NCBI RefSeq assembly: GCF_002077945.1
Contig: NZ_LVYD01000013.1
Span: 310,001-374,000 of the forward strand
Direction: 5' to 3'
Source of the DNA: Niastella vici
Lineage (GTDB): Bacteria; Bacteroidota; Bacteroidia; Chitinophagales; Chitinophagaceae
DNA length: 64,000 nt
Below are positions 2,302 to 54,605 of the stretch, one piece after another (position 1 is the first letter of the stretch; each line of letters starts with the position of its first letter). A program made the translations under genes and the position numbers. The notes beneath the pieces are model-generated. The model was not told the origin of the DNA. It saw nothing but the letters and a program-made list of their open reading frames with translations, and did not search any database.

Positions 2302-2403
2302 GATTTCTGATTTCGGGATTTCTTGATTTCTGGATTTGCCAATTCCCGGCAATTCCGAAGATTTTAAAATCTCAAAATCTCCCGATCTCAAAATCTCCCA
2401 ATC
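2302..2403. repeat. Fold-back element A (8-bp period)
   Basis: The left arm has five GATTTC/GATTTG units starting at 2302, 2309, 2317, 2325 and 2333. The right arm has the inverted motif AAAATCTC at 2366, 2374 and 2390, with diverged copies at 2382 and 2398, so exactly 8 bp apart. The arms can pair imperfectly. The element ends 5 nt from the stop codon of the minus-strand OmpA fusion gene, so it begins that gene's 3' region. Confidence 0.65.
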
Positions 2404-2408
2404 ACCGC

Positions 2409-4178
2409 CTACTCACCCAGCACAATTTCCACACGGCGGTTCTTGCTTCGGCCGGCTTCGGTGCTGTTGTCGGCTATGGGTTTTTCAGCGCCATAACCTT
2501 TGGCTTCTATCTGATCTTGTTTCAAGCCTTTTTTGATCAGGTAAGCTTTTACCGCTTCGGCACGCTTTTGTGAAAGCGGCACGTTTACGACGTCGCTGCC
2601 TTTATTATCGGTGTGGCCATACACCCCCAGCTTCAGGCCTTCAGCCACTACAGCCGATTCAAAGATCTCATCCAGCATTCTGTACGAACCGGGTTTGATG
2701 TTGGCAGAGCCGGTCTCAAACTCAATGCTGTACGATTTGGATGATACTTCCGAGGTGATCTGTTCGGCATATTTTGTTTCAATAGCCTTACCCTGTAACA
2801 GTTCGGGGTGGTTCGAGATCACACTGAACAGGAACGATTTGTCAACGGCTTTTTCATAGGGCAAAAAGCTGGGCATTATGGAAGGGTACATTTTCACCAT
2901 CAGGTTACCAAAGGTGTTGTACACCGCTTTGTAACGGTCAACCTTATCGTCGCCCAGTCCATAGGTATTGGCCATATCGTTCAGGTTAAATACGGCAGAA
3001 CCTCCGAGGTTCACTTTCAACCCCTGAATATCTTTTTCTTCCACGCCATTGAAGTATTTTAACCAGTAGGCGGCGTTTTGTTCCTGGTACAATTTGGCGC
3101 TTACTTCAGCCGCAAATTGTTTGGCTTCATTAAACGAACGTACCTGGTCGCCGGCCTGGGCCAGGGCAATGATCATGTTCTCGATATCGGTACGGTGATC
3201 ATAAGCCCATTTTTTAATGACAATGGTTTGGTTACTCATTTGCGATGCATACTGACGGGTGCTGGCAATGCTTACCAGTCCACCCTTTTTGGTGGCGACA
3301 TTTACGTCACCGGGTGTCCAGGTGGCTACGGCGTCAACACTCACCGTGGTGTCGGTACCGGTTGTTTTTCCATTTACGATCAGCTTCCTTTTTTCGGTAT
3401 AACCGGTGATGTACTTGTTAGGTGCATCGAGGAAGTCATTGGCAGCAATGATGTTGATGGCATTACCGTCGTAAGTGGTTTCATCGGGGTTTACCTTTAA
3501 CCCGTTGTCACCGGCCCATTTCAACAAAATATTGATGTCGCCATCGCGCAGCACACCGGCCACGCATTTACCCACGGCGTTGTGCGGGTCCTGCTTCCAG
3601 GAAGTGGGGCCCATTATTTGGTCTTCACCATACGATTTACCGTGTGTAACCGGTATAATAATGGGTTGGTATTCGGGACCCAATGGGTCCAGCTCTTTGG
3701 CGAGCGAGGTCATAAAGGCCGGCATACCGTCGCCCATGAACGTGATCAAAACGCCCGGTGTATTCGGATTGGTTTTATAATCGTTGGCGAATTTTACCAG
3801 GTCGGCCATTTGTTTGTTACAGTCGTCCTGACGTACATATGTAACGTCGAGGTGCGCTTTATCGAACAAAGATCCTTTTGTAGTACGTACGCCACCGTTA
3901 GCATACATACCGCTGAACTGGCTATTCCAGGCCATGCGTTCCCAGCTAATCTGTGTGCCCCCGTTCACGGCCTGTTCATCACCGGGAAGGGGTAATTGTA
4001 CAGCGGCGTTGCCCTGTAAGGAGGCTTCCGGTGCATTGGGCAGGGCTACTTTACCTACTTCAATAGATGCGTTTACTTCCTTGGGACGGTTTTGATACCA
4101 TCTTACGCCTAAAATACCTGCAGCTACTACTGCTGCGATTATTACTATTTTTCCGGCGGGTTTTATTTTCATTGCCAT
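2409..4178 (-). CDS. Membrane-anchored solute-binding domain fused to OmpA domain
   Basis: A 589-residue fusion. An N-terminal hydrophobic anchor (about 8-24) is followed by a periplasmic type-2 binding-protein-like region (about 60-430), resembling substrate-binding components of NMT1/phosphate-type ABC systems. The C-terminus (about 480-589) is an OmpA-family peptidoglycan-binding domain with GHTDNKG, LSQKRA, GYGAEKP and GRSKNRRVEI. The Asp in GHTD and the Arg in NRRVEI are the positions that normally bind meso-diaminopimelate. It sits upstream of the permease and ATPase. A receptor tied to both membrane and cell wall cannot diffuse like an ordinary binding protein, so a sensing or tethering role is plausible. 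Ligand unknown. Confidence 0.88.
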   Translation of the reverse strand: MAMKIKPAGKIVIIAAVVAAGILGVRWYQNRPKEVNASIEVGKVALPNAPEASLQGNAAVQLPLPGDEQAVNGGTQISWERMAWNSQFSGMYANGGVRTTKGSLFDKAHLDVTYVRQDDCNKQMADLVKFANDYKTNPNTPGVLITFMGDGMPAFMTSLAKELDPLGPEYQPIIIPVTHGKSYGEDQIMGPTSWKQDPHNAVGKCVAGVLRDGDINILLKWAGDNGLKVNPDETTYDGNAINIIAANDFLDAPNKYITGYTEKRKLIVNGKTTGTDTTVSVDAVATWTPGDVNVATKKGGLVSIASTRQYASQMSNQTIVIKKWAYDHRTDIENMIIALAQAGDQVRSFNEAKQFAAEVSAKLYQEQNAAYWLKYFNGVEEKDIQGLKVNLGGSAVFNLNDMANTYGLGDDKVDRYKAVYNTFGNLMVKMYPSIMPSFLPYEKAVDKSFLFSVISNHPELLQGKAIETKYAEQITSEVSSKSYSIEFETGSANIKPGSYRMLDEIFESAVVAEGLKLGVYGHTDNKGSDVVNVPLSQKRAEAVKAYLIKKGLKQDQIEAKGYGAEKPIADNSTEAGRSKNRRVEIVLGE

Positions 4179-4346
4179 AGTTGAATGTTTTTTGAGTACT
4201 TAGATTTTGCTAAGTGCCCGGGTTGTTGGTTGTATTGTTTGTTAAATGTTTTGGTTTTTACAGGGCATGGATGGGGTTACCGGCTGCATCGCTCCGGTTA
4301 TGCACCGCTTGCGACGCTCCGTTCATCGGCATTAATTCTGTTGAGC

Positions 4347-5342
4347 TTAATCTAAAAGACCTCTGTAGCGGTCGGGCGTTGCGATCCCTTTCAGCTTGCC
4401 GTTGTCGCTATTCTTCTCCAACGCATTTTGCGTATAATTGAAGTCGTTGTCTTTATTGAACTGGTTGATGAGTTCAATAGCCTGGGCACTTTTGGCTTTA
4501 TCTTCCAGTACCTTGTCGTCCATAAAGCGTGAGGTAACATCTATGGCCGATTTAATATGGCCGATCTTTTCACCGATCTGCACTTTCAATATGGCGAGGG
4601 CTTTTTCGGCATCCTGGTTCAGTTCATCATCGCCCCTGAACGCTTTCATGGCGCTTGTTACGGCCGATAAACCGGTTGTTACTGAATAGTACAGGTCTTT
4701 CTTGGCTTCCAGATCGAGCTTCGCATCTTCGAGCATAATACCGCTCTCTTCATAGGCTGCATCGGCAAATTGTATCAGCTTGTTCAGGTCGCCTACTATG
4801 GGGGTTACATTGTCGATGTACTCCCGGCAACGCAAAACATTGTTTGCATACAGATCAACCTGTCGACTGTTCTTTCCCTGTTCGGCTTGCAGGATCCTTA
4901 CTTTTTGTATGTTCAGCTGCAACTCTTTTTCCTTGTCGGTCAGTTTGTCGACCAGCTCACTTTGTTTGCCTTTTAATTTGGCGGCCTGTTGATATAAGGT
5001 ATTTCTATCCTTATAACCCTGCTCAATTTTGGCCTGCAGAATATTGAACGGATTCAATTCTATTGCAATGCCAATGGTGTAATTGGCGATGAATGCTGAA
5101 AAGTATTTTAATGCCCGCCAGAATTTTTTATTGGTTACGATCATCAGCAGCAAGCTGAGGATCACACCGCCTATAACCAGGTTCACCAGGTTCCAGGTTA
5201 CGGTTACCAGCCATGGCAGTACGTAGGTTAAAAAACCGTACGCCAAACCGGCAAATAAGGATAGGCCTATAACAGCAGTGGCCATGTTCTTGGGTTCAGC
5301 AAACCACCCCGGGGTTTTTGCTTTTTGAATAGGGTTTATCAT
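4347..5342 (-). CDS. Two-TM protein with long PspA-like coiled coil
   Basis: A 331-residue protein I cannot name. Residues about 20-45 and 52-72 form two transmembrane helices. The rest is almost entirely charged helix with coiled-coil heptads (about 100-200) and a second helical part to about 300. The segment after NPFNILQAKIEQ, with Lys/Glu/Gln-rich register, is reminiscent of PspA/Vipp1 family helices. That resemblance is pattern-based, not a demonstrated homology. It lies 11 nt downstream of the next coiled-coil gene (5354-6010) and upstream of the solute-binding/OmpA gene, so all are probably one transcription unit. Confidence 0.75.
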   Translation of the reverse strand: MINPIQKAKTPGWFAEPKNMATAVIGLSLFAGLAYGFLTYVLPWLVTVTWNLVNLVIGGVILSLLLMIVTNKKFWRALKYFSAFIANYTIGIAIELNPFNILQAKIEQGYKDRNTLYQQAAKLKGKQSELVDKLTDKEKELQLNIQKVRILQAEQGKNSRQVDLYANNVLRCREYIDNVTPIVGDLNKLIQFADAAYEESGIMLEDAKLDLEAKKDLYYSVTTGLSAVTSAMKAFRGDDELNQDAEKALAILKVQIGEKIGHIKSAIDVTSRFMDDKVLEDKAKSAQAIELINQFNKDNDFNYTQNALEKNSDNGKLKGIATPDRYRGLLD

Positions 5343-5353
5343 TTTATAATAGT

Positions 5354-6010
5354 TTATTGTATATAGCGTTTTATTTTTTCTATGTCCCGGTTTATCCGGC
5401 TCTTCATGGCTTCGCTCTCATATTTATAGCCGCCTGTATTGGCTTCAATCTTCGCTTCATTTTCTTTTATCTCGCTTTGCAGGGTCAGCTGTTCGTTTTG
5501 CAACGTGCTTATTTCCTGCGTCAGCTGTTGAATGCGTTGTGCTTTTTCTTCCATTTGCCGTTTCTTTTCATGCACTTTTTCCTGTAAGGCAGTGCCTACG
5601 GTGTTCTGGAAGTTGGTGGCATCGGTTTCCAACATTTGCAGGTACTGGGCAGCGGTTGATAATAATTTCTGTTTATCGAGCCCCTGAACGCTTAAGCCTG
5701 CAAAGGCTGTACTATAACGTACCTGTTCATCCGGAACGGCCTGCATGGCTTCTGTCATTTTACTGAACTCGAAGTAATCGGGCCCCGGAATGTTTGCTTC
5801 CTCGAACAGCTTTTCAAAGTAGGCGGCGAATTTGCTGTTCCCCGTTGATGCATAACTGTTGCTGGCAGTTGTGGGGGTGAAGGTGGCAGCTGGTTGCGGA
5901 GTGGCAGGTGTATAAACCTGTTTGGTTGCTGCCGGCTTTTCCGCTTCTTTTTTTGGGTCGTCGTTTACCTCCACGAAAGCCGACAGAATTTTTTTTCCTA
6001 AGTTGGCCAT
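5354..6010 (-). CDS. Soluble coiled-coil protein of the ABC/OmpA cluster
   Basis: A 218-residue protein with no signal peptide. An N-terminal low-complexity Pro/Thr/Ala linker (about 25-57) leads to a compact helical part (about 58-125, beginning KFAAYFEKLFEEANIPG). The C-terminal coiled coil (about 135-218) is rich in Gln, Glu and Lys. It is likely cytoplasmic. It precedes the membrane coiled-coil gene by 11 nt, and matching coiled coils in the two proteins suggest that they interact. No family was recognised with certainty. Confidence 0.75.
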   Translation of the reverse strand: MANLGKKILSAFVEVNDDPKKEAEKPAATKQVYTPATPQPAATFTPTTASNSYASTGNSKFAAYFEKLFEEANIPGPDYFEFSKMTEAMQAVPDEQVRYSTAFAGLSVQGLDKQKLLSTAAQYLQMLETDATNFQNTVGTALQEKVHEKKRQMEEKAQRIQQLTQEISTLQNEQLTLQSEIKENEAKIEANTGGYKYESEAMKSRINRDIEKIKRYIQ

Positions 6011-6368: not shown

Positions 6369-7182
6369 CTCCTAACTATTTAATTGCTTTTAAGCCAGAT
6401 GCAACTGCGCGCAAGATTTTTCAAAAACCTTATGTAGCGATTGAAAAATTTGTGTGCTTCGTTCCATCAAATTGAATTGAGCATAGAAAATCCGGTACAC
6501 AGCAAGCAGCTGTATAGGAAAATGTTTGAGCAGCGTTAGCTCGGTAGCTCTTTTCCTGGATGATTAAAATTGGATGATTGCTGGTGGCTTTACTCTTTGG
6601 CGGTAACGGGCGAAGAGAAACTCTAAGTAATGGTTCATTGTTGGTGGAGAAGTATCTCCTATTTGATTGACATACCAAAGGTATAAGGGGGTTAACATTT
6701 CGTTTAGAGAATCAGGCACGAGCGGCAACTTTTGTTTGCCGGCCGGTAAAGTATGTGTGATGAATGGTAAAATAAGTGGCTAAAAGCGAATATATGCGGG
6801 TAAGTGGCTGATAATCTTGCGGTAAGCGGTTGGGGCAAAGGTTCCTGGTCGCCGGAAACCATTCCATAGTGGAAGGCCACGGTTTACAGTTCAAAGTTCG
6901 CAGATCTGTTTATAATTCCTGATTGGCGGCAGCAATTCTTAGCTCAAAGTTTTCAGCTCCGTTCGCGGTGCCCAGACCTCGCAAGCGATACTTTGGCGCC
7001 TGGTTCCCGTGCTTTTGGCGGGTGTTCAAACAAAGACCAACCAAAGACCTAACAAAGACCAAACAAAGACAAGATAAGGATATGCCTTTATCAGGTCCCT
7101 GTTTGATCTTAATCAAGTTATAGTTTGATCTTATTTTGAATACGTTTTAAATACTAACTTACCTAATCAAAAAACTACGGTT
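6369..7182. other. 814-bp region without a convincing gene
   Basis: Short frames exist on both strands, but none has family-like composition or a good start. The right part holds a fold-back repeat at 7027-7132. Promoters for the divergent genes at 6368 and 7183 must lie here, but I see no exact TAnnTTTG box. Confidence 0.5.
7027..7132. repeat. Fold-back element with four 11-bp units
   Basis: Four direct 11-mers lie at 7027, 7038, 7049 and 7060, of the form CAAACAAAGAC with one or two changes. GTTTGATCTT occurs at 7101 and 7123, 22 bp (two periods) apart, and is nearly the reverse complement of the AAAGACCAAAC junctions in the left arm. A small hairpin, ATAAGG with CCTTTAT, lies between. It is about 50 bp upstream of the DUF6266 gene. 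Confidence 0.65.
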
Positions 7183-7827
7183 ATGGGAAGTCTTAAATAT
7201 GGCAGTCTGGGCCCTGTAAATGGTAAAGTTGGTAACCTGATTGTCTCCAGTTGGAAGGGTAAGCCTTATGTTAAGTCGTTACCGAAAGAACGTAAGTCAA
7301 TGCCCTCGGAGAAAGAACTGATCAACCGGAAGAAATGGGCCATGGCGCAGGCATGGTTGCGCCCTGTTACAAAATTTGTACGCGAAGGCTTTCGCGGCTA
7401 TACCGAAACGGTAGAAGGGTATCTGGCTGCCAAGTCGTGCCTGTTAAAGAATGCATTCGAAGGGGTGGCGCCTGATCTTATCATTAACCCGGCGTTGGTG
7501 AAGGTGAGTGCCGGTGAATTGCCATTGCCGCAAAATATGCAGGCTACGCTGCTTGAAAATCATGTTGTACAGTTTGCCTGGAGTACAGAGGCCATTTCCC
7601 GCTCAAACCGGTACGACCAGGTAATGCTGCTTGCCTACGATATTGAAAATGGATTTTCAATAAGTACATTAACCGGACTGCTCAGGTACACGGGTGCCGA
7701 TACATTACAGTTGTCGGCGGTGAGGGGCCAGGTGTATCACCTGTATGCCGCCTTTATAGCTGCAGATAGAAGCATGCAGTCGGATAGTATTTACCTGGGA
7801 GCAATGAATGTGAAGCCTCAGGAGTAA
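7183..7827 (+). CDS. DUF6266 family protein
   Basis: A 214-residue protein whose N-terminus, MGSLKYGSLGPVNGKVGN, is the hallmark of DUF6266, a family found in Bacteroidota. The Lys/Arg-rich region at about 28-60 is also typical. There is no signal peptide or membrane segment. Function is unknown; the family is often annotated only as hypothetical. Its TAA stop is immediately followed by the heptamer array (TAATGG), so the array starts inside the stop codon. Confidence 0.85.
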   Translation: MGSLKYGSLGPVNGKVGNLIVSSWKGKPYVKSLPKERKSMPSEKELINRKKWAMAQAWLRPVTKFVREGFRGYTETVEGYLAAKSCLLKNAFEGVAPDLIINPALVKVSAGELPLPQNMQATLLENHVVQFAWSTEAISRSNRYDQVMLLAYDIENGFSISTLTGLLRYTGADTLQLSAVRGQVYHLYAAFIAADRSMQSDSIYLGAMNVKPQE

Positions 7828-8481
7828 TGGTCAATGGTCAATGATCAATGGTCAATGGTCAATGGTCAATGGTCAATGGTCAATGGTCAATGGTCAATGG
7901 TCAATGGTCAATGGTCAATGGTCAATGGTCAATGGTCAATGGTCAATGGTCAATGGTCAATGGTCAATGGTCAATGGTCAATGGTCAATGGTCAATGGTC
8001 AATGGTCAATGGTCAATGGTCAATGGTCAATGGTCAATGGTCAATGGTCAATGGTCAATGGTCAATGGTCAATGGTCAATGGTCAATGGTCAATGGTCAA
8101 TGGTCAATGGTCAATGGTCAATGGTCAATGGTCAATGGTCAATGGTCAATGGTCAATGGTCAATGGTCAATGGTCAATGGTCAATGGTCAATGGTCAATG
8201 GTCAATGGTCAATGGTCAATGGTCAATGGTCAATGGTCAATGGTCAATGGTCAATGGTCAATGGTCAATGGTCAATGGTCAATGGTCAATGGTCAATGGT
8301 CAATGGTCAATGGTCAATGGTCAATGGTCAATGGTCAATGGTCAATGGTCAATGGTCAATGGTCAATGGTCAATGGTCAATGGTCAATGGTCAATGGTCA
8401 ATGGTCAATGGTCAATGGTCAATGGTCAATGGTCAATGGTCAATGGTCAATGGTCAATGGTCAATGGTCAATGGTCAATGG
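7827..8481. repeat. Array of 93 tandem ATGGTCA heptamers
   Basis: Counting by coordinates gives 93 complete 7-bp units from 7827 to 8477 plus a partial ATGG. All are identical except the third, ATGATCA. The phase is unbroken over 651 bp. Because 7 is not a multiple of 3 and the unit has no plus-strand stop, all three forward frames are open and encode the same MVNGQWS peptide repeat; every minus frame contains TGA. It lies between convergent genes, so I treat it as non-coding repeat DNA. Confidence 0.97.
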
Positions 8482-8531
8482 ATTTACGGCGGCGCAAGTT
8501 CGTTTATTAATTTGAACAATCGCGAGCTATT

Positions 8532-8555
8532 CACCATTGACCATTCACCATTCAC
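8532..8555. repeat. Inverted heptamers facing the array
   Basis: Three units, CACCATT, GACCATT and CACCATT, followed by CAC keep the 7-bp period. The middle one is the exact reverse complement of the array unit AATGGTC. They start about 50 bp after the array ends and end about 10 nt from the stop codon of the GH5 gene. Together with the array they form a fold-back structure. Confidence 0.8.
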
Positions 8556-8564
8556 TACAACAAC

Positions 8565-9779
8565 TTATTTACTTTGCATCAGGGTAAGTAATTTTTTATC
8601 GAGTTTGTAACCATACCAGTCTTCATACTGCACATCGGCCCGGTTTGAATTCAGGATCCCGAAATCGCCTTTCAGTTCCCACAAGGCAAAACCGATCCCG
8701 TTCGAGGTGAGTATGTCGAGTACATCGCCAAACCACGCGAGGAATACATCGTGCGGCGTTTGGTTCCAGCAACCGCATTCACCGCAATGAACACCCACGC
8801 CCTGGTTTACCATCTCAATCCACGGTTTGTAATATTCTTCCAGTGTAGCGCGGCTGAAATAGCGGCCGCCAACTGTACCGGGCCACAAGGGCGTTGGCTG
8901 GTACGCCGCATCAGCATATACCCAGGGCGCTTTGTAATGCGAGATCTCAAATGGTGTATATCCGCGGCAACTTTGCGCAATGTTCAAATCGGCCAGCTCG
9001 GGAACCACATCTGAGCCGCCATTGTTGCCATCGGCGATAATATAATAATTGGAATTTTCTGCCCTTATTACCTGCGCGGCGGCCTGTGCTACCGAACGAT
9101 ACACAGAACCGGGAATGGCAGTGGTTGTAGAGGATGTGTCGTTTACATCTGCGCGATAACAGGGTTCATTCACCAGGTCAAAACTGATCTTGCCGGTTGA
9201 AGTATTCTTAAACCGCTTTGCCCAGTAGCTCCAGTGATAGCAAAATGCATCCTGTGCATCCTTTTCTTTAAACAGGTTGTATGGCTCATTATAGCCAGTG
9301 CTTACGCAGTAACCCGGTGCGCGGTGTAAATTCAGGCTTACATGCAGGTTATATTTCTGTGCCAGATAAATGGTTTGCTCTATCTGGTTCACCCGGCTTT
9401 CATTTATTTTATATACATCATCATTGTGGATGTACTTCTGGTATTTTTCCAGGTTCAGATAGTAGGGATAAGCCACAGGCATTCTGATGAAATCAAATCC
9501 CCAATCGGCCACCCATTTGAAGAACTCTTCGGGTGTTGAGCCGCCTGCATAATAGGGGTCTGGTTGAAAAAAGTCATTAATGTTAAAGCCCTTCCATTTG
9601 GGCAATCTGTTTTTTGAAGTGCCTGCAGTGGTTGAAGCGTTTGAATTGGTATTATTTGTATGCTGTGTAAGGGATGTGATTTCAGGTAATACTTTAGAGC
9701 ATCCTGCCAACCCACCCATAGCTGCCAACCCGACATTACGCAAGAATGTCCGGCGGTTCAGGCCTTTGTTAATTTTCAT
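8565..9779 (-). CDS. GH5 family glycoside hydrolase, Tat-type lipoprotein
   Basis: A 404-residue cellulase-superfamily enzyme (TIM barrel, retaining) likely to cut beta-glucan or mannan chains. The acid/base is Glu205 in LVNEP, the nucleophile is Glu334 in CGECG, and LHR at 151-153 is also conserved. The N-terminus has a twin-arginine motif (NRRTFL) and a lipobox (LAGC, Cys27), so it is probably Tat-exported and lipidated. A Ser/Thr/Asn linker (about 37-58) precedes the catalytic domain. It faces the DUF6266 gene across the repeat array. Exact substrate unknown. Confidence 0.92.
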   Translation of the reverse strand: MKINKGLNRRTFLRNVGLAAMGGLAGCSKVLPEITSLTQHTNNTNSNASTTAGTSKNRLPKWKGFNINDFFQPDPYYAGGSTPEEFFKWVADWGFDFIRMPVAYPYYLNLEKYQKYIHNDDVYKINESRVNQIEQTIYLAQKYNLHVSLNLHRAPGYCVSTGYNEPYNLFKEKDAQDAFCYHWSYWAKRFKNTSTGKISFDLVNEPCYRADVNDTSSTTTAIPGSVYRSVAQAAAQVIRAENSNYYIIADGNNGGSDVVPELADLNIAQSCRGYTPFEISHYKAPWVYADAAYQPTPLWPGTVGGRYFSRATLEEYYKPWIEMVNQGVGVHCGECGCWNQTPHDVFLAWFGDVLDILTSNGIGFALWELKGDFGILNSNRADVQYEDWYGYKLDKKLLTLMQSK

Positions 9780-20504: not shown

Positions 20505-21431
20505 ATGATCATTTTTAGAATAATGGCAAATACCTGGAAAATCTTTAAACAATCGATCACTGAGTTCTTCAACGATAATTGCATAAAGCTCAGTGCTTCC
20601 CTGTCGTATTATACCATTTTTGCCCTGGGACCCACCTTGATCATCATTATTTCATTTGCCGGTATCTTTCTCGGGCGCGATGCCGTGGAGGGTAAGTTGT
20701 ATGGTGAAATAAAGAACCTGATCGGTGCCGCCGCTGCGGCGCAGGTGCAAAGCATTATCGCCAATTTGCAGCATAACGATCAAACAGTGGTAGCTGCTAT
20801 CATTGGTGTGGTGTTATTGATATTGGGCGCAACCGGCGTATTTACCGAAATACAGGGTTCTATCAACTATATCTGGAGCATAAGGGCCAAACCCAAAAAG
20901 GGCTGGCTGAAATTTCTGACCAACCGCCTCATCTCTTTTTCACTGGTGGTTAGCTGCGGTTTCATATTACTGGTATCGCTAACTATTAATGCAGTAATGG
21001 AATTGCTAAATGAAAAACTTCAGGTATATTTTAAGAGCGTTACCATTATTGCGTTTTATATTTTGAACCTGGTGTTGATCTTTGCGGTTATCACTGCCCT
21101 GTTCGCCATCATTTTCAAAGTACTGCCCGATGCTACCCTCAGGTGGAAAGATGTTATTGTGGGTGCGGCATTTACTGCCCTGCTGTTCATGCTGGGCAAA
21201 TTCCTGATCAGTTTATATATCGGTAAATCAAACGTGGGCCTAACCTATGGTGCAGCCGGTTCCATTATCGTGATCCTGGTGTGGGTGTACTATTCTTCCC
21301 TGATCCTGTATTTTGGGGCCGAATTCACCAAGATATATGCCATACAACACGGGGCCGGCATAAAGCCTACCCAAACGGCGGTGTTTATTATAAAGCATGA
21401 AGCCAAAGAGATAGGAGAATCAAAAATATGA
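20505..21431 (+). CDS. YihY/BrkB family inner-membrane protein
   Basis: A 308-residue membrane protein with six hydrophobic helices and the family signature SASLSYYTIFALGPTLIII (about 27-45). KVLPDATLRWKDVIVGA and SSLILYFGAEFTKIYA are also characteristic. Once called RNase BN, the family is now regarded as a transporter-like membrane protein of unknown function. The likely start is the second ATG at 20523 (MANTWKIF). A fold-back element starts within its TGA stop. Confidence 0.93.
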   Translation: MIIFRIMANTWKIFKQSITEFFNDNCIKLSASLSYYTIFALGPTLIIIISFAGIFLGRDAVEGKLYGEIKNLIGAAAAAQVQSIIANLQHNDQTVVAAIIGVVLLILGATGVFTEIQGSINYIWSIRAKPKKGWLKFLTNRLISFSLVVSCGFILLVSLTINAVMELLNEKLQVYFKSVTIIAFYILNLVLIFAVITALFAIIFKVLPDATLRWKDVIVGAAFTALLFMLGKFLISLYIGKSNVGLTYGAAGSIIVILVWVYYSSLILYFGAEFTKIYAIQHGAGIKPTQTAVFIIKHEAKEIGESKI

Positions 21432-21566
21432 CTGGGGTAGCCTGAACCGGGATAGATCTAATTTATGGGATGTGTGGGATCATTGATTTCCTGATTCGCG
21501 GCCATATTCCAAATTATTTAAATCCCTAATCCCGGTTCATCCCATAAATCCCACTATCCCAGTCCG
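21430..21566. repeat. Fold-back element G at the end of the YihY gene
   Basis: GAACCGGGAT (21444-21453) has an exact inverted copy, ATCCCGGTTC (21529-21538). ATTTATGGGAT (21461-21471) has ATCCCATAAAT (21539-21549). Outer GACTGGGGTAG (21430-21440) matches CTATCCCAGTC (21554-21564) with one mismatch. The element starts inside the TGA stop of the YihY gene. The order of the two inner pairs is not nested (see findings). Confidence 0.75.
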
Positions 21567-42998: not shown

Positions 42999-43982
42999 AT
43001 GATGAGAATAGCAATTAACGGTATGGGCCGTATAGGCCGGCTTTTGTTCAGACGGTTGATTGACCGGGACGATATTGAGCTGGTTGCGGTCAATGATATT
43101 ATGGATGCCGATAACCTGGCCTATCTGATAAAGTACGACTCGGTATACGGCACCTTCCCCGGCACCATTACCCACCAACCGGGAGCCATTGCAGCCAATG
43201 ATAAAGTAGTAAAGGCCTTCAGACAGGATAAACCTGCGGCCCTGCCCTGGAAAGACCTGAACGTAGACGTGGTGCTCGAATGTTCGGGAAGCTTTAGTAC
43301 CCGTGCCGGGGCCGAACAGCATTTAATGGCCGGCGCCCGCAAAGTGTTGTTGTCAACCACCGGTTCAAACGATATTCCCCTGCTGGTATACGGTTTTAAC
43401 CAACATGCGCTTTCAAAGGAAGAAACGATCATTTCGCCAGGCGGCTGCATGACCAACTGTTCAACACATATATTATATATTTTGAATGCCATTGGCATAA
43501 AATCGGTACAGTGTAATATTTTACATTCCTATACCTCGCGTCAGGAACTGGTTGATGCGCCGCATAAGCAATTCAGGCGCGGAAGGTCTGCTGCGGAGTC
43601 TATTATACCGGTAGAAATTGATCTGCAACATTCGCTTGAGCGGTTATTACCTGCCCTTGCAAACAAGATCGCCTCGGTATCGACCCGGGTACCGGTAGCT
43701 AATGGCGCCATGGCCGATTTTACCATTCAACTGCAGCACGATACTTCGCGCCAGGAAATAAACCGCTTGTTCGCTACAGCCGCTAAAAACGATTATAAAG
43801 GCATTATAGAGTATACCGAAGACCCGCTGGTTTCGCTCGATATTAAAGGAAATACCCATTCCTGTGTTATCGACGGTACGCTTACCTCGGTAGTGGGCAA
43901 CCATGTAAAGCTGATTGCCTGGTTCGATAATGAGTATGGTTTTACCACCCGCATGATCGACTGGCTGCCTTTAATGAAGTAA
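42999..43982 (+). CDS. gap: Glyceraldehyde-3-phosphate dehydrogenase, type I, divergent
   Basis: A 327-residue enzyme that oxidises glyceraldehyde 3-phosphate in glycolysis. NAD-binding motif NGMGRIGRLLFRR (8-20) leads to catalytic Cys150 in SPGGCMTNC and His176 in HSYT, then RVPVANG and WFDNEYGF. The active-site loop differs from the usual ASCTTNC, and the HSYT/DAPH region also differs. It may be a second, specialised GAPDH paralogue or an erythrose-4-phosphate dehydrogenase-like form. Its stop codon is shared with the start of fold-back element E. Confidence 0.88.
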   Translation: MMRIAINGMGRIGRLLFRRLIDRDDIELVAVNDIMDADNLAYLIKYDSVYGTFPGTITHQPGAIAANDKVVKAFRQDKPAALPWKDLNVDVVLECSGSFSTRAGAEQHLMAGARKVLLSTTGSNDIPLLVYGFNQHALSKEETIISPGGCMTNCSTHILYILNAIGIKSVQCNILHSYTSRQELVDAPHKQFRRGRSAAESIIPVEIDLQHSLERLLPALANKIASVSTRVPVANGAMADFTIQLQHDTSRQEINRLFATAAKNDYKGIIEYTEDPLVSLDIKGNTHSCVIDGTLTSVVGNHVKLIAWFDNEYGFTTRMIDWLPLMK

Positions 43983-44064
43983 GAAGTAAGAAGGAAGATG
44001 TATGAAGTTAGCGGGATTCCTAATTGCAAATTATTTTCTCATCTTCCTACATCCTTCTTACTTC
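43976..44064. repeat. Fold-back element E (GAAGTAA units)
   Basis: GAAGTAA repeats at 43976 and 43983, with a third GAAG. GAAGTAAGAAG (43983-43993) pairs exactly with CTTCTTACTTC (44054-44064), and GGAAGATG (43993-44000) with CATCTTCC (44040-44047). The first unit includes the TAA stop of gap. The same CTTCTTACTTC occurs in element F. Confidence 0.8.
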
Positions 44065-44193
44065 GGCATCCTGGTTCACAAAAGTCTTGGGTTTTTGATT
44101 TGGGAATTTTAATTTACTTTTAATTACTTATAGTGGAAACACATACCCGGTAACTTTATTATTTGTGAATTTTGCGACCATGAATTTTTGGCT

Positions 44194-44884: not shown

Positions 44885-46282
44885 TTGAAGATCAAATTTA
44901 AAATAACTGCGCTTTTTGCCTTACTGGTTACCATTATACTGCTGGCATTAAGTATATCTGTTCATTATTTTACCGCCCTGCAACGAACGGAAACATTTAA
45001 AAAGCGCCTGAAAGGCCGCGCTAATAACGACGGACAGCTTTTTTCTTATTTAGGTGATAATGACAGCAGCCGGGCATTCCTCTATCATATGGATTCGGCG
45101 TCGGCATTTACGCTCACCCAGAAAAGCGTGGCGATCTTTAACTATCTCGATCAACCGGTGTATCAGTATAATGTTCCCGATATCGATTCTATAATACCCA
45201 ATAAGGAGATACTGAAACAGGCCCGGTTAAAACACGAAGTATCTTATTCGGCCGGTAAACGTGATGTGCTGGCCTTCCATTATACCGATAAACGCAGCCG
45301 TATTATTGTGGTAGTAGCCGGGTATGATGCAGACGGCTGGGAGCGCCTGAAAGACCTGCGCGATCTGTTACTTGTTTGTTTGTTCATAGGTATTGCGGTT
45401 GCCCTGGCAGTAGGCTATGCTTTCTCGTTACAACTGGTTAAACCCATTAAACAGATCATACATGACGTAAATCATGTTACTTCGCAAAACCTGTCGAAAC
45501 ATATACAGGCCGGCAGCACGCAGGACGAACTGAACCAGCTGGCGAACACCTTTAATGACCTGCTCGACCGGTTGCAGGAATCGTTCCTGATACAACGGCG
45601 GTTTATTTCCAACGCGTCGCATGAACTATCGACCCCGCTTACTTCCATCTCGAGCCAGCTCGATGTAACCCTGCAAAAAGAAAGAAGCACTGAAGAATAT
45701 AAACAGGTGATATATTCAGTGCATGAAGACGTGCAGCAAATGCAACAGCTTACCAAAAGCCTTCTCGAAATTGCAAAGACCGGCTCACAGGGAAGTATCG
45801 AACTCAGTGAAGTGCGTATCGATGAAGTGTTGTTAAAGGTAACTGCCGATGTGCAAAAGAACAGTGAAGCGTATAAAGTGATACTGCAGTTCGGCGACTT
45901 TCCCGACGATGAAAAAGCTTTCCTGGTATTTGGCAACAGCGACCTGTTGTACAGTTCCCTGCGTAACATTGCCGATAATGGTTGTAAATTTTCATCTGAC
46001 CATCATGTAATGGTTAATTTGTTATTCGAAGATGATAACGTAATTGTACAATTTAAAAACTACGGCGATACCATTACGAAAGAAGAAGCCGAAAATATAT
46101 TCCAGCCATTTTATCGCAGCGCCAATGCTTCGCCTATAGAAGGCTTTGGGCTGGGGCTGCCGCTTGCCAAACGGATCATCAATTTGCATAAAGGCGACAT
46201 CAAAGTGCAGTCATCTCCCCATACCGGAACGGTTTTTACGATCGTACTTCCTTCATTAAAGGCTTTTGCGGCTAAACCTTAA
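44885..46282 (+). CDS. Sensor histidine kinase, partner of the OmpR-type regulator
   Basis: A 465-residue two-helix membrane kinase (TM about 8-28 and 160-180). The start is TTG (44885), 1 nt after the regulator stop; no ATG is suitable before the signal-anchor helix. A HAMP region follows (about 180-232). HisKA has ASHELSTPLTSISSQLDVT with the phosphorylated His, and HATPase has DNGCKF and GFGLGLPLAKRII. The arrangement is like CusS/PhoR-type sensors. The signal is unknown; the periplasmic loop is about 130 residues. Confidence 0.95.
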   Translation: MKIKFKITALFALLVTIILLALSISVHYFTALQRTETFKKRLKGRANNDGQLFSYLGDNDSSRAFLYHMDSASAFTLTQKSVAIFNYLDQPVYQYNVPDIDSIIPNKEILKQARLKHEVSYSAGKRDVLAFHYTDKRSRIIVVVAGYDADGWERLKDLRDLLLVCLFIGIAVALAVGYAFSLQLVKPIKQIIHDVNHVTSQNLSKHIQAGSTQDELNQLANTFNDLLDRLQESFLIQRRFISNASHELSTPLTSISSQLDVTLQKERSTEEYKQVIYSVHEDVQQMQQLTKSLLEIAKTGSQGSIELSEVRIDEVLLKVTADVQKNSEAYKVILQFGDFPDDEKAFLVFGNSDLLYSSLRNIADNGCKFSSDHHVMVNLLFEDDNVIVQFKNYGDTITKEEAENIFQPFYRSANASPIEGFGLGLPLAKRIINLHKGDIKVQSSPHTGTVFTIVLPSLKAFAAKP

Positions 46283-46366
46283 GGGTATTCCCATTTGTTT
46301 AATTGCTTTTTAATTCCCCTTTAATTAGCGTTTAACGGTAATAAAGCATATTTGAGTACTATTTCA

Positions 46367-48260: not shown

Positions 48261-48300
48261 GGGTATTGCCTAAAACCATAGCCGGGGTAACAAACAAATA

Positions 48301-48333: not shown

Positions 48334-48358
48334 AAAAAATTATATAGTAAAATATGAT

Positions 48359-49596: not shown

Positions 49597-51066
49597 TTAG
49601 GTGGTCAGGAGGCATTCCTTCCCGAGCCGTACTGTTTCATTTACAAGCAATTCAAAATCAGTGAACCGGCTGCGGTGGTTGGTAATGGCCGCCCTGATGG
49701 CGTATTCTCCGTTCAATACCGTATAGGAAGGGGCCGCTATGCCCTGTTCGTGCAGCCGCATCAATATTTCCCTGTTCAGCTCATTCAATTGCTTTGTGAT
49801 GTAGTTGCCCGGATTAAAACGAAAGCAAACAATATTCAATGGCACAGGCGCCAGCAATTCCAACTCCGGTTGCATTTGTACCAGTTCGGCCAGGTATTGA
49901 GCCTGCTGCAGGTTTTGCCTGATGAGTGTGCGATAGGTTTCCAACCCATTTTGCTTTAACGACATCCAGATCTTCAGAGCCTTAAAGCCCCGCGATAGTT
50001 CCATACCAAAATTGTTAAACCCGTCGGGACCTGCACTCAGTCCCCGCTCGTGCAGGGTTAAATAGTTTACGGCCGATGCAAATGCTTCCCTGTGCAGCTG
50101 CGGGTCGCGTATGAGCACACAGGCCGCTTCATAATTCACATACAACCATTTATGAAAATCGAACGATAAGCTATCGGCCAGCTCCAGGCCTTTGAGGCTG
50201 TCTGCAAATTCAGGCAACAAATTGGGAATAGCGCCAAACGCGCCATCTACATGCAGCCATAGTTTGTGTTCTTTTGCAATGGCCGCCAGCTCATTGAGCG
50301 GGTCAATGGCGCCAGTATTTACGGTGCCGGCATTGCCCACTATACAAAACGGAATGTAACCGGCCGCTCTATCTTCCAGGAGCATACGCCGCAATTCATC
50401 GGTACGAATGCGGTAATCGGCATCAACGGGAACCTTGCGGAAATTGTCGCTGCCAATACCGATCACTTCTACCCCTTTCAATACACAATTATGCGTTTCG
50501 GAAGAACCGTACACCGTGAGTGGGCCGGCAACCGACTGCAAGCCTTTTGTTTTAATGTCGCGGTTGGCAGCATGCCGGGCCACTACCAGTGCTGTGATAT
50601 TTGCCAGGGAAGCACCGCTCAACAGCAACCCGCTTGCTGTTTCCGGAAACCCCATCATTTCTTTCGACCAGTCGAGTACCTGTTTCTCTACATACATGGG
50701 CATACTGTCACCAATGCTTACATTGGCGTTCATGCCCGAGGCCAGCATATCGGCCAGCATACCGAACGGGGTGCCGCCACCCTGTACCCATGCCCAAAAG
50801 CGCGGATGAATATTGTTGATGTTAAAGGGAAGTACATGATTGAAGAACTCTTCATACACGGCCTTTGCGTCCTGGGGCTGTTCGGGAACGGGCTGTTGCA
50901 TACTGGCCAGGGCTGCTGCTGTTGGTTTTGTATATACCGGGCGTTGGCGGGTAGTTTCAAGGTAATAGAACAGATCATCGAGCATGCGGTGGCCCAGCTC
51001 ATTCAGGGTTGACCAATCCTGCGGGTCGAGTGTTCTTTCTTCTGTTAATAATGCTTCTTTTTTCAT
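49597..51066 (-). CDS. PLP-dependent group II decarboxylase
   Basis: A 489-residue fold-type I enzyme of the glutamate/aromatic amino-acid decarboxylase family. SFDFHKWLYVNYE carries the PLP Lys, LWLHVDGAFG the PLP-interacting Asp and SLANITALVVARH an N-terminal landmark. It removes CO2 from an amino acid, but the substrate (aromatic, glutamate or 2,4-diaminobutyrate) cannot be told from these motifs. No close partner gene is visible. Confidence 0.92.
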   Translation of the reverse strand: MKKEALLTEERTLDPQDWSTLNELGHRMLDDLFYYLETTRQRPVYTKPTAAALASMQQPVPEQPQDAKAVYEEFFNHVLPFNINNIHPRFWAWVQGGGTPFGMLADMLASGMNANVSIGDSMPMYVEKQVLDWSKEMMGFPETASGLLLSGASLANITALVVARHAANRDIKTKGLQSVAGPLTVYGSSETHNCVLKGVEVIGIGSDNFRKVPVDADYRIRTDELRRMLLEDRAAGYIPFCIVGNAGTVNTGAIDPLNELAAIAKEHKLWLHVDGAFGAIPNLLPEFADSLKGLELADSLSFDFHKWLYVNYEAACVLIRDPQLHREAFASAVNYLTLHERGLSAGPDGFNNFGMELSRGFKALKIWMSLKQNGLETYRTLIRQNLQQAQYLAELVQMQPELELLAPVPLNIVCFRFNPGNYITKQLNELNREILMRLHEQGIAAPSYTVLNGEYAIRAAITNHRSRFTDFELLVNETVRLGKECLLTT

Positions 51067-51248
51067 AACTACTTATTGTCAGGTATAAAGTTGCGCCGCA
51101 TCAAATGGGCTAACAACCCGTTTCCTGCGTTCTTTTACAAATTTCCTGTAGAACAGTAGTATAAAACAGATGCAGTTTGCGGTAATTGAACTGGATCAGA
51201 TGATGCAATTCCCCACTTTTTTACCCGCATTTCCCAATCCGGGATAAG

Positions 51249-51292
51249 CGAAGCGTAACCGAAGCTTGACCGAAGCGTGACCGAAGCTTTCC
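51249..51292. repeat. Four tandem 11-bp units CGAAGCGTAAC
   Basis: Units at 51249, 51260, 51271 and 51282: CGAAGCGTAAC, CGAAGCTTGAC, CGAAGCGTGAC, CGAAGCTTTCC. Same period and copy number as the repeat at 7027. I see no inverted mate nearby. Confidence 0.8.
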
Positions 51293-51366
51293 TGAAGGTA
51301 TTCCCACAATGGGAGTTGTGTTTCGTCCTAAAATAGCTACAGGCAGTTTTGTTGTATAACAACAGA

Positions 51367-51390
51367 GGGTGGCAAGTTAACCTGCCACCC
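51367..51390 (-). terminator. Hairpin terminator after acyl-CoA synthetase
   Basis: GGGTGGCA pairs with TGCCACCC over an 8-nt loop. It lies 23 nt beyond the synthetase stop. The U-tract is weak, so it may be of low efficiency. Confidence 0.6.
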
Positions 51391-51412
51391 CCTTATTAAC
51401 TTACTCAATTAT

Positions 51413-53194
51413 TTATGCATAAATGTGCTCAATAGAATCGCGGTATTTTTCCATCACCACTTTTCGTTTAATGCTCAGCTTGGGCGTCATTTCACCGGTT
51501 TCAATGCTCCATTCGTGTGGCAGCAGTTCAAACTTTTTTATTTGCTCTACGTGGTTGAAGAATTTGTTGAAGCTGTGTACGAGCTCATTGAACAGGTCAA
51601 TTACTTTGGGTTGTTTTATCAGCTGTTCATTGGGCATATCTGCAATGCCCTGTTTACGGGCCCAGTCTTTCAGTGCCGGAAATGCCGGAATGATGAGCGC
51701 GCCTACAAATTTCTTTTCAGCGCCTACCACCATGATCTGCTCTACATAAATTGATTCTTTCAGCTTGTTCTCAATGGGCAGTGGCGCTACGTACTTACCA
51801 CCACTGGTTTTGAACAATTCTTTTTTGCGATCGGTAATTTTCAGGTATTTATTTTCTACATACATCCCAATGTCACCGGTATGGTACCATTCGCCGCTCA
51901 TTGATTCTGCGGTAAGATCGGGGCGTTTGTAATAGCCCATCATAACGTTGGGGCCTTTGCAAAGTATTTCACCGTCTTCGGCGATCTTTACTTCTACATT
52001 ATCGATCAATGGGCCAACTGAACCAAACATCCGGTTATGCGCTTCAAAACGGTTTACACTGATCACCGGCGAGGTTTCAGTTAAACCATAGCCTTCGAGC
52101 ACCGGTATGCGGCCTGCGGTAAATATGCGTATTAAACGAACCTGGCAGGCAGCGCCCCCGCTAACAATACATTTCAGGTTATTGCCCAGGCCCTCGCGCC
52201 ATTTGCTAAAAATGAGTTTGTTGGCAAGGGCCAGTTGCATGTTATAGCTAAAGCCCATTGGTTTATTGATCTCGTACCGGGCAGCGAGGTCGTGCGCCCA
52301 GTAGAATAATTTTCTTTTCAAACCGGTTAACTCTGCGCCTTTGGCCATAATGCGGTCGTACACTTTTTCGAGCAGGCGGGGAACGGTGGTGAAGATGTCG
52401 GGTTTTACTTCCTTCAGGTTGTCGCCGATGGTATCCATACTTTCAGCATAATAGATCGCTATTCCCCTGTACAGGTAAAAATAGGAGATCATTCGTTCGA
52501 ATATATGGTTCAGGGGCAAAAAGCTGAGCGCCCGCATATTCTGAAAATCGGGCAAACAGGGATAACAGGCCATTACATTGCTCAGGATGTTCTTGTGCGA
52601 AAGCATAACGCCTTTGGGTGTTCCTGTGGTGCCTGAGGTATATATGATGGTGGCCAGGTCTTCGTAATCGATGTTGGCCGCAATGGTTTGAATTTTTTGT
52701 ATACCTGCTTCATCACTCAGCTGCAAAATGTCTTTCCAATGGCGGGCATTGGCCACGTGTTCAAAAGTATAGATCTCCTGCAGGCAGGGAACGCGGTCTT
52801 TTACACTTAATACTTTATGGAAAAGCTCTTCGTCGTTTACAAATACAATTTTTACCTGGGCATCATTTAACACAAATTCCAGGTCCTGCACATTTATGGT
52901 GGGGTAAATGGGCGTAAGAATGGCGCCAATTTGCTGAACAGCCAGATCGAGCATTATCCATTCGGGGCGGTTCTTGCTAAGGATGGCAATTTTATCGCGC
53001 TTTTCGGCGGTCATATCGCCGCACTGGATACCCAGGTTCAATAAACCGGCCCCGAGTTTATCAACGGTGGTCTTTACTTCTTCGGTACTGTATGTTTTCC
53101 ATTTACCATTTTCCTTTGCCGCCAGCATATCGGTCAATGGCTTTGTTTTTAAACGGTACTGCAGGCAATCGAATAATCGTTTGGGTTCGGTCAT
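51413..53194 (-). CDS. Long-chain fatty-acid-CoA ligase (AMP-forming)
   Basis: A 593-residue enzyme that makes acyl-CoA from long-chain fatty acids in two steps via acyl-AMP. The P-loop-like motif YTSGTTGTPKG (185-195) is intact. GYGLTETSPVIS, YHTGDIG and KELFKTSGGKYVAP are also conserved. It resembles the FadD15-type synthetases of Bacteroidota. It provides fatty acids for lipid metabolism. The gene starts next to no operon partner, and a hairpin at 51367-51390 follows. Confidence 0.94.
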   Translation of the reverse strand: MTEPKRLFDCLQYRLKTKPLTDMLAAKENGKWKTYSTEEVKTTVDKLGAGLLNLGIQCGDMTAEKRDKIAILSKNRPEWIMLDLAVQQIGAILTPIYPTINVQDLEFVLNDAQVKIVFVNDEELFHKVLSVKDRVPCLQEIYTFEHVANARHWKDILQLSDEAGIQKIQTIAANIDYEDLATIIYTSGTTGTPKGVMLSHKNILSNVMACYPCLPDFQNMRALSFLPLNHIFERMISYFYLYRGIAIYYAESMDTIGDNLKEVKPDIFTTVPRLLEKVYDRIMAKGAELTGLKRKLFYWAHDLAARYEINKPMGFSYNMQLALANKLIFSKWREGLGNNLKCIVSGGAACQVRLIRIFTAGRIPVLEGYGLTETSPVISVNRFEAHNRMFGSVGPLIDNVEVKIAEDGEILCKGPNVMMGYYKRPDLTAESMSGEWYHTGDIGMYVENKYLKITDRKKELFKTSGGKYVAPLPIENKLKESIYVEQIMVVGAEKKFVGALIIPAFPALKDWARKQGIADMPNEQLIKQPKVIDLFNELVHSFNKFFNHVEQIKKFELLPHEWSIETGEMTPKLSIKRKVVMEKYRDSIEHIYA

Positions 53195-53289
53195 AGATGT
53201 TGTTTTTTGAGCCCGGCAAATGATTGTGGAAACGGCAAGCGGTTCCCCCCGGGACTTGCATTGATTGAATTTAACAAATCTGCGCTAAT

Positions 53290-53318
53290 AAAAAAAGTCC
53301 CCCGGTGTACCGGGGGAC
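53290..53318 (-). terminator. Palindromic terminator after the TPR gene
   Basis: GTCCCCCGGT (53297-53306) pairs with ACCGGGGGAC (53309-53318), and seven A precede it on the plus strand, giving a U-run on the minus transcript. It sits just beyond the TPR gene stop. Confidence 0.88.
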
Positions 53319-53326
53319 TAATTAAT

Positions 53327-54355
53327 TTATTTTACTGATTGATAATACTGACCCGCGGGTAATTTGAAAACCCGGTTGTGCTGAAAATAATCAAACTTGT
53401 TGTATTCTTCCTGGTGAGTTTTGGTCCAGTTTTCATACGCCGGCAGGTTGGCGGCTGTGCCAAAAACCCATTGGTTATATGCGTCGAACATCCCTGCTTT
53501 TAACAATTGCTGCTGATATTCGAACAGGCGGAAGGGAAAACGTGTGGCGTTTTTCGCATACCAGTCAAGGATGAATTTGGTGCGAACGGCCGATAAAGTT
53601 TCGGGCGTAACGCCGTTAGAACCGATGAATGAAGATTGTGATTTAATGATATCGAAATAGGCTTTTACAAACTCATTCTTTGTATCCTGATCTTTGGTAA
53701 GGTTAACATCGGAAAACAATTTCTTATAGCCATCGAGTAATACATTCTTGATCTCTGCGGTACGTTTCGAATAGCTTTCGAGGTTTACAAAGATCTCTCC
53801 GTATATCAGGCCCCAAACCTTATCGGTAGTAAAATAATAATGTTTGGCGGCGTTGTAATAATTACCTGAATAACCAGGGTCCGATTCAATGCCTTTTTCC
53901 CAAATTTTGATGGCTTCGGCGTAATCTTTTTTGGTATATTTCATTTCGCCATATTCGCTGTACAGGGTGCCGCTATTGGGGAATTTCTTCAGGGCCGCTT
54001 TGTACATTTTTTCGCAATCCTTTACTTCTTCAATGGCTTTATACACCATACCCAGTAATTGAAAGCTTTGCACATCGGCATCCTGCCGGTCGGGGAATTT
54101 TTGGGCTACCTCCAGGGCGTGCACATAATCACGGTTAAGGTAATAGGCGAACGTGAGGTCTTTCTGCAATTCCAGGTTATCGGCGTTGCTCTGTAAAGCC
54201 CTGTTCAGCACCAGAACGGCGTTGGAATAATCGCCCTGCTTCATATAATTTTTAGCAGTTTCCTGAACTGTTTTAACATCACCGGCGGGCTCCTGCTGGG
54301 CCTGGGTCAGATTTACGACAAACAATAATCCTACAACTGGTAAAAGATGTTTCAT
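53327..54355 (-). CDS. Secreted tetratricopeptide-repeat protein
   Basis: A 342-residue protein with a signal peptide (about 1-19, ending LTQAQ). Several TPR units lie in the first 200 residues (DYSNAVLVLNRALQ, KDYAEAIKIWEKGIESDP); the rest is helical. TPR modules mediate protein contacts, here in the periplasm or outer membrane. Partners unknown. The promoter is very close to the ATG. Confidence 0.88.
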   Translation of the reverse strand: MKHLLPVVGLLFVVNLTQAQQEPAGDVKTVQETAKNYMKQGDYSNAVLVLNRALQSNADNLELQKDLTFAYYLNRDYVHALEVAQKFPDRQDADVQSFQLLGMVYKAIEEVKDCEKMYKAALKKFPNSGTLYSEYGEMKYTKKDYAEAIKIWEKGIESDPGYSGNYYNAAKHYYFTTDKVWGLIYGEIFVNLESYSKRTAEIKNVLLDGYKKLFSDVNLTKDQDTKNEFVKAYFDIIKSQSSFIGSNGVTPETLSAVRTKFILDWYAKNATRFPFRLFEYQQQLLKAGMFDAYNQWVFGTAANLPAYENWTKTHQEEYNKFDYFQHNRVFKLPAGQYYQSVK

Positions 54356-54362
54356 ACGGGAC

Positions 54363-54393
54363 CAAAGATAAGGGAAGTAGCATAGCTGGAAAA
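54363..54393 (-). promoter_or_regulatory. Promoter of the TPR gene
   Basis: Minus-strand TATCTTTG (54370-54363) is an exact TAnnTTTG box, with TTTT 19 nt upstream as a 3-of-4 -33 match. Only 7 nt separate the -7 box from the ATG at 54355, so the transcript may be nearly leaderless. Confidence 0.65.
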
Positions 54394-54439
54394 GAAGGAA
54401 AGTTTCGCAGAAAGTTAAAGTTCCTGGCAGGGAAGTTCT

Positions 54440-54605
54440 GAAGTAGGAAGTAAGAGGCAGGAAGTAGGAAGAACCCGAAGGCGGGAGCCGCTTTGCTGTT
54501 TCAGGCCTCGAATTGGGCGGATGCTCGAAATCGGAGGTCTGAGGTCTGAAGTAGGAAAATCGAAATACAGGCTCTTCGTACTTCTTATTTCCTACTTCTT
54601 ACTTC
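54440..54605. repeat. Fold-back element F (GAAGTAGGAAG units)
   Basis: GAAGTAGGAAG occurs at 54440 and 54461 with related units between. Right arm: TTCCTACTTC (54589-54598) and CTTCTTACTTC (54595-54605). GAAGTAGGAA (54461-54470) pairs exactly with TTCCTACTTC. The CTTCTTACTTC unit is identical to that in element E. It lies between the divergent-end DUF1015 gene and the TPR gene start. Confidence 0.75.

Follow-up and report, generated by a model that had tools for sequence, protein, structure and literature searches.

What are the repeat-armed hairpins that stand at gene ends in Niastella vici, a soil bacterium with a 10.06 Mb genome (134 contigs)? The window analyzed here, a 64,000-nucleotide (nt) stretch of one contig (G000:C13:310001-374000), contains six fold-back elements in which short repeats or blocks are followed by inverted copies of the same. 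The preliminary description of this window saw in them a recurrent way of forming structure in 3′ untranslated regions, possibly for termination or mRNA protection, with copy number driven by slippage; this is examined below as the construction of each element in place. In the reading favored here, to which we assign a probability of roughly 0.5, they belong to a set of dispersing, non-autonomous fold-back elements that are tolerated at gene ends, partly by virtue of a stop codon that they carry, with effects on transcript ends being secondary. The elements fall into recurrent unit families, mostly one per element, and are characterized by a fixed polarity, homologous cores in two of the families, contact with stop codons and turnover between species.

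The statistics are derived from 1,236,819 bases (1.24 Mb, 12% of the genome), in which genes were predicted with our own open reading frame scorer (a script; 78–87% coding); because the gene finder is home-made, some of the intergenic gaps may contain missed genes. An ungapped inverted-repeat search recovered just part of the element next to the YihY gene of the window, and a gapped hairpin search was used instead, with a cut-off score of 15 or more, and with repeat arms defined by a period of 5–14 and a threshold repeat score of 8. This search yielded 148 hairpins, 68 of them with repeat arms and 67 of the latter intergenic, compared with 17 hairpins, a single one with repeat arms, in a shuffled control (two contigs, 0.797 Mb, dinucleotides kept). 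A search for arrays of period 7, 8 or 11 in the same 1.24 Mb produced 192 intergenic arrays. An element is organized as a run of 7- or 8-nt units in forward orientation, followed by a short core and then by the same unit repeated in reverse, and mostly measures ~60–220 bp in total. The recurrent class with a common plan that had been proposed from the window is therefore borne out across the genome sample.

The names of the unit families were chosen by visual inspection of the data, and 140 of the 192 arrays were assigned by motif to seven of them (the 52 unassigned arrays were left out). The assigned arrays are spread over 87 gaps, 40 of which hold a single array; among the 47 gaps with two or more, one family occurs alone in 45. 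The order is forward-then-reverse in 44 of the 45 gaps with exactly two arrays, the exception being reverse-reverse, and the two gaps with three arrays read ++- and +-+. Given that the forward label of each family was picked from the hairpin list, the evidence of polarity lies in the sameness within a family.

For comparison of cores and arms, 47 paired elements were extracted. The 18 cores of the GTTNC family are far more alike than shuffled cores (52.0 vs 23.2 ± 0.9; 5 of the 18 had to be turned round to align), and so are the six cores of the ATGGTS family (35.7 vs 21.9 ± 1.9), with at least one clear case of an inverted core (C42:278555). MITEs have terminal inverted repeats around a dispersed core, and the families divide on this point: such a plan is seen in GTTNC and ATGGTS but not in GATTT and GAAGTA. 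With dispersed homologues among the cores of two families, the elements cannot have originated through slippage in place alone. Local slippage with fold-back copying at each element, the likeness of units being incidental, would fit the long, nearly uniform array at 7826–8481 (~94 copies, for which copy-number slippage within the array is plausible) and the presence of GAAGTAG at the end of the gap gene in the congener G007, which has no element there, so that seeding is possible at that site. It does not fit the 735 matches in the genome to GAAGTARGAAGTARGAAGTA (up to 2 mismatches, overlaps counted), compared with 3 for the reversed control, nor the dispersed homologous cores.

Nor does it fit the pairing of the two arms. 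The summed score of the arms with their own partners was 783, compared with 848 ± 18 when partners were permuted among the 47 elements. In the inner 28 nt (31 elements), own arms scored 459 vs 506 ± 12, none of the 5000 permutations was as low, and all five families were lower; in the inner 21 nt (47 elements), 2% of the permutations were as low, and three of the five families were lower. The innermost units are opposed C vs G in 11 of the 13 ATGGTS loci (with a pattern allowing either letter; counts of opposed arm units are small), so that roughly one base in seven of the ATGGTS hairpin is mismatched, as C-C or G-G. Local inverted duplication would lead one to expect own arms to match better than the arms of other elements, not worse, and the under-matching contradicts both selection for a perfect hairpin and fold-back copying of arms. 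The construction of each element in place is accordingly not supported on three counts, namely, the recurring units, the cores shared across loci and the under-matched arms; it is hard to hold for GTTNC and ATGGTS, less so for GATTT, GAAGTA and the block-type YihY element, and as a general account it is improbable. We interpret the arms as the two different ends of a single element, the distinctness of which may be maintained because a perfect palindrome would be unstable.

The second line of evidence is the position of the elements. The enrichment near stop codons, the lack of which the preliminary description had named as a refutation, was found: among the 57 repeat-armed hairpins located in gaps with a stop codon on at least one side, 41 overlap a stop or start no more than 15 nt from one, whereas placing them at random in these gaps gave a mean of 23.6 and a maximum of 32. 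For periods 7, 8 and 14 only, the count is 41 of 52 (same-gap null 23.4, maximum 31), and in same-direction gaps 36 of the 40 repeat-armed hairpins are nearer to the stop. Convergent gaps hold 17 of these hairpins, with 8.5 expected by length, and divergent gaps hold 9, with 22.7 expected. No pull to within 15 nt of the stop is seen for the 64 intergenic hairpins that lack repeats (21/51 vs a null of 19.6), which show a weak pull within 50 nt (31/51 vs 25.9, p 0.02). The pattern recurs in 0.8 Mb from six congeners, the stretches of which are partly orthologous to each other (23 of 36 repeat-armed hairpins within 15 nt, compared with 13.6). Other genomes were sampled by stretches of 20–200 kb each; the enrichment is present in genus G263 (7/14 vs 2.6) and is not significant in genus G306 (4/12 vs 3.6).

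The contact involves the stop codon itself. The outer edge of the element falls at -7 to +3 nt of the stop in 21 of 59 elements, compared with 7.1 expected, and the stop can be located within the first unit, as in the contexts of TAG followed by TTACCGGTTACC, or TGA followed by ATGGTGAATGG or TTTTTTGATTTT. The 42 genes touched at their ends (-30 to +3 nt) use TAG, TAA and TGA in 21, 10 and 11 cases, respectively, compared with 147, 543 and 134 among the 824 genes with no element nearby (p 3e-8); no such shift is detectable in genes with an element at 4–60 nt (7, 20 and 10).

The placement after stops, with the convergent excess and the divergent deficit, is also what would be expected of functional 3′ untranslated region (3′-UTR) hairpins selected to end or protect the transcripts of upstream genes, in both directions in convergent gaps. 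The elements read, however, contain no T-tract and in this respect differ from intrinsic terminators, which consist of a GC-rich hairpin and a U-tract. Moreover, they show no distribution complementary to that of intrinsic terminators (convergent gaps, 4/20 vs 19/84; tandem gaps, 5/58 vs 40/312), and this lack of mutual exclusion within a gap speaks against the replacement of terminators. Function as a hairpin is also at odds with arms that fall short of the best match attainable.

Comparison between species bears on both readings. Six congeners share long syntenic stretches with the window, and across ten species one and the same site can be filled, empty or filled by another family. Thus, the gap gene is followed by a GAAGTAR element in this species, by a GATTT element in G001 and G004, by a GAAGTA element in G008, by other arrays in G006 and G009, and by nearly nothing in G002 and G007; the sequence is different again, with no hairpin detected, in G003 and G005. 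Another site measures 193 nt with an array pair in G004 vs 13 nt in G001. At the aro locus, an element of the ATGGTS or CGGCAAT family sits between the DAHP-synthase and dehydroquinate-synthase genes in nine of the ten species, namely, the present one and eight congeners; in G009 the junction is bare. Some gene ends are re-occupied more than expected: for periods 7 and 8 (28 genes, 7 species), the clustering statistic is 79 vs 37 ± 5, and 79 vs 39 ± 6 when shuffling is restricted to gaps of at least 100 nt (a single convergent gap contributes two of the occupied rows, one for each side). Such re-use would be expected of hot sites, of a need at these ends, or of inheritance during which the units change.

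For the 3′-UTR function, this comparison cuts both ways. The same gene ends are re-occupied, and at the aro locus, although arms and core change, the minimum-energy fold pairs the arms with each other in eight of the nine filled species (not in G003), with two-sided changes at 5 of 20 consensus pairs among the nine sequences. Conversely, the covariation is weak in the five most alike aro sequences (2 of 38 pairs, with an unfavorable covariation term), many sites are empty in congeners, and a terminator at the aro locus would cut off the genes behind it. On balance, selection for transcript ends is possible but rather unlikely as the principal explanation.

Several observations weigh against the dispersal of mobile elements. 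The cores of GATTT (9) and GAAGTA (6) are no more alike than shuffled cores, and the arms of these two families are not under-matched in the inner 21 nt. Most of the ATGGTS cores outside the main group lack a clear orientation, and no near-identical cores were found, the best pair being 92% identical over 37 nt (only cores were compared). At the filled and empty sites read, no target-site duplication could be defined, and re-occupation could reflect conserved need, or inheritance with rapid change of units. The shift in stop codons is not significant in the six congeners (TAG/TAA/TGA of 18/24/9 vs 133/294/66, p 0.22), nor in G306 or G263, so that the finding on TAG belongs to one genome. Finally, no mobilizing enzyme was found.

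The candidate examined for such an enzyme is the only Y1_Tnp gene of the genome (L083:1474-1902; G000:C46), which is HUH transposase-like and lies between the DAHP-synthase/chorismate-mutase and dehydroquinate-synthase genes, in synteny in all ten species of the genus. Related genes occur in Flavitalea-like genomes, and the motifs of the gene resemble subclass 1.2 in the part of PMC6006769 consulted. The proposal that REPIN-like elements are moved by a Y1 (RAYT-type) transposase, either that of the aro cluster or another Y1 protein, has several points in its favor: a fold-back element stands directly upstream of the Y1 gene in nine of the ten species, REPINs likewise have two inverted arms (in the portion of PMC3116915 used here), repeat-armed hairpins are absent from all three Y1-free genomes sampled, and two other genera with an orthologue have an array density of 13.3 per 100 kb, compared with 8.5 here. 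However, with 20–100 kb compared per genus outside Niastella, G306 and G263 have no orthologue (E<=1e-30) and contain 10 and 23 repeat-armed hairpins per 100 kb, compared with just 2.5–5.5 in three Niastella-group genomes; the other six of the eight genera sampled without an orthologue have none. Five genera with an orthologue have 0, 0, 0, 1.7 and 1.7 per 100 kb (1.7 being one hairpin each). Among three further orthologue loci, arrays occur within 20 kb in one (Flavitalea, five arrays) and not in the other two, and none of five Y1_Tnp loci in G306 and G263 has arrays, four of them having other, REP-like or GC-rich hairpins. The single-copy gene and its adjoining element looked promising, but the comparisons with other genera run against a simple link between Y1 and the elements, and a Y1 mover seems unlikely; some Y1 protein might still be necessary without being sufficient. 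The hairpins that flank the Y1_Tnp genes of G306 and G263 (L229, L230, L231 and L233) are long, REP-like or GC-rich, e.g. CCGTAGGACTT...GCCCGTAGGGCATTAACC, and form a different repeat class.

The features of the window are collected in Table 1. Re-reading and the gapped hairpin search recovered all six elements where they had been placed originally.

Table 1. Coordinates of the fold-back elements, their parts and an adjacent gene in the window
Feature	Position	Strand	Remark
Fold-back, GATTTNNG (period 8) family	2302..2406	.	On the 3′ side of the OmpA-family gene (2409-4178, minus strand)
Period-11 fold-back (CAAACAAAGAC), set apart from the other elements	7027..7132	.	
DUF6266 gene	7183..7827	+	ATGGTSA array begins at its stop codon
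Left (forward) array of the ATGGTSA element, ~94 copies	7826..8481	+	TRF score 1305, 99% matches
Asymmetric core (CGGCGGCGCAAGTTCGTTTATTAATTTGAACAATCGCGAGC) of the ATGGTSA element	8482..8528	.	Similar cores occur at other loci and among congeners
Right (reverse) array of the ATGGTSA element	8529..8555	-	Ends 9 nt short of the convergent stop at 8565
Block-type fold-back	21429..21566	.	Starts at the stop codon of the YihY/BrkB gene
GAAGTAR fold-back	43976..44064	.	First unit includes the stop codon (TAA) of the gap gene
GAAGTAR fold-back	54438..54606	.	~45 nt 3′ of the minus-strand DUF1015 gene (54652-55893)

The contacts with stop codons claimed at 2302–2403, 7827, 21430 and 43976 stood up to re-reading, with 5 nt separating the first of these elements from the stop of the OmpA-family gene. 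The absence of a stop link at 54440–54605, asserted in the same place, did not: the element lies downstream of the DUF1015 gene. The statement that the sequences are unlike each other is partly right, except that the elements at 43976 and 54440 share the unit GAAGTAR and that units recur genome-wide. G003, G006 and G009 lack such an element at the site syntenic to 2302..2406, where G002 has other repeats. The YihY element forms a good gapped hairpin but was left out of the statistics because its arm repeat score is 6, below the threshold of 8; no hairpin of score 14 or more was found at this site in any of the six congeners compared.

The period-11 fold-back at 7027–7132 looks like a member of another class, although the cases are few: there are six period-11 hairpins, four with a stop on one side, and none of these four lies within 15 nt of it, with the null merely 0.3. 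Together with the long ATGGTSA element downstream, this fold-back flanks the DUF6266 gene; the syntenic gap is too small for that gene in G002, G003, G006 and G009 (414, 527, 321 and 292 nt, respectively). Downstream of window position 51413, G003, G006 and G009 have period-11 arrays (CCGTATATGTCCCGTACATGTC) with an inverted mate, after a terminator-like hairpin, and the window species instead has an unrelated period-11 array. Phased 11-nt direct repeats also occur at 44107–44129 (TTTTAATTTACTTTTAATT) and at 46298–46335 (TTTAATTGCTTTTTAATTCCCCTTTAATT), the latter downstream of 44885–46282 and kept in all seven species compared; both look like operator sites rather than fold-backs.

Among known systems, the Drosophila fold-back (FB) transposons have inverted repeats made of short tandem repeats around a core, as here; the elements described here are far smaller, bacterial and without a coding core. 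The STRR heptanucleotides of heterocystous cyanobacteria reportedly also form heptamer arrays scattered between genes; they are not known to have an inverted partner, a core or contact with stops. The hairpin at the stop codon brings to mind integron attC sites, which have paired R and L boxes and an integrase, but the units and polarity here look unlike those of attC. A search of titles and abstract openings in one library found no description of such elements in Niastella or Chitinophaga. In the part of PMC4679880 that we used, the TAACTGA repeats of Beggiatoaceae, common to some Cyanobacteria and Bacteroidetes, are likewise intergenic heptamers but mostly direct and located just upstream of start codons.

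REPINs, as far as described in the excerpts used, are dispersed, extragenic hairpins with two inverted arms and a spacer (PMC3116915, PMC3733652), and the ends of REPs often supply the TAG of the adjoining gene (PMC3733652). The doublet plan, dispersal and extragenic position are shared. The REPIN arm, however, is a palindromic REP of 20–40 bp tagged with GTAG/CGTC, whereas the arms here are tandem arrays of units (no search for the tag was made); the REP-RAYT system differs, too, in that no simple link to a Y1 gene was found here.

The closest known counterparts appear to be the repeats of a G-rich heptamer, GGGAATC, described in Xanthomonas and Nostoc (Rehm et al. 2015, PMC4692102), which are intergenic, near stops on the sense strand, and arranged in convergent (inverted) array pairs, as in 44 of the 45 two-array gaps here. 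They differ in that several unit families coexist here, two of them with homologous cores and under-matched arms. The similarly placed arrays of Xanthomonas and Nostoc were interpreted in the same source as G-quadruplex formers, and GGG or CCC is present in 41 of the 47 elements studied here, but a sequence scan detected the canonical four-run motif in none of the 47 on either strand. A quadruplex therefore cannot be the common point, and the common features are inversion and stop contact. With period-7 arrays numbering 125 in intergenic regions vs 12 in coding ones, phase-variation simple sequence repeats are no better supported, and either version of this explanation is highly improbable. 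The elements are filed with the heptamer arrays and not with REPINs.

The class might extend beyond the genus. A GAAGTA array is present in 41 of the 247 genomes of the phylum, most with few matches, and in 30 loci from other bacteria, which were fetched for the Y1 search and so provide a lead rather than a survey, there are 18 repeat-armed hairpins (at a slightly lower threshold), three of them 9–23 nt after a stop. These hairpins were seen in Spartobacteria, Acidobacteria, Lentisphaerae, Kiritimatiellota and others; at L146, L144 and L152, which are loci of Acidobacteria, Spartobacteria and Lentisphaerae, they are built of other units.

If the elements are indeed dispersing and non-autonomous, they would spread as copies by transposition or conversion and survive mainly just after stop codons, where an insertion would do little harm. 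The edges of the units carry TAG, TGA or TAA, so that an element landing on a gene end could supply the stop. The arrays would afterwards lengthen and shorten by slippage, and the arms would differ at the variable position of the unit, with a mismatch about every 7 bp, as seen in the ATGGTS family; these mismatches may hold the hairpin below the length that is attacked by palindrome-cutting nucleases. Any influence on transcript ends would be a by-product.

More speculatively, and with clearly less confidence than in the dispersal itself, the elements may represent a class of miniature mobile elements of the fold-back type that spans several phyla and has not been named before. Their ends would be arrays of lineage-specific 7–10-nt words in fixed left and right variants, with a mismatch at every turn of the hairpin; they would insert at gene ends and donate a stop codon, and the Xanthomonas G-rich heptamers and the cyanobacterial heptamers would be two lineages of this class, moved by a yet-unknown enzyme. 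If so, the interpretation of heptamer repeats in other bacteria as quadruplexes would have to be revised, and the question would be which enzyme copies a word array together with a core. Much of the variable 3′ sequence in these large genomes would then be one kind of element, not random spacer, and gene ends would serve as landing sites open to rewriting, down to the stop codon itself.

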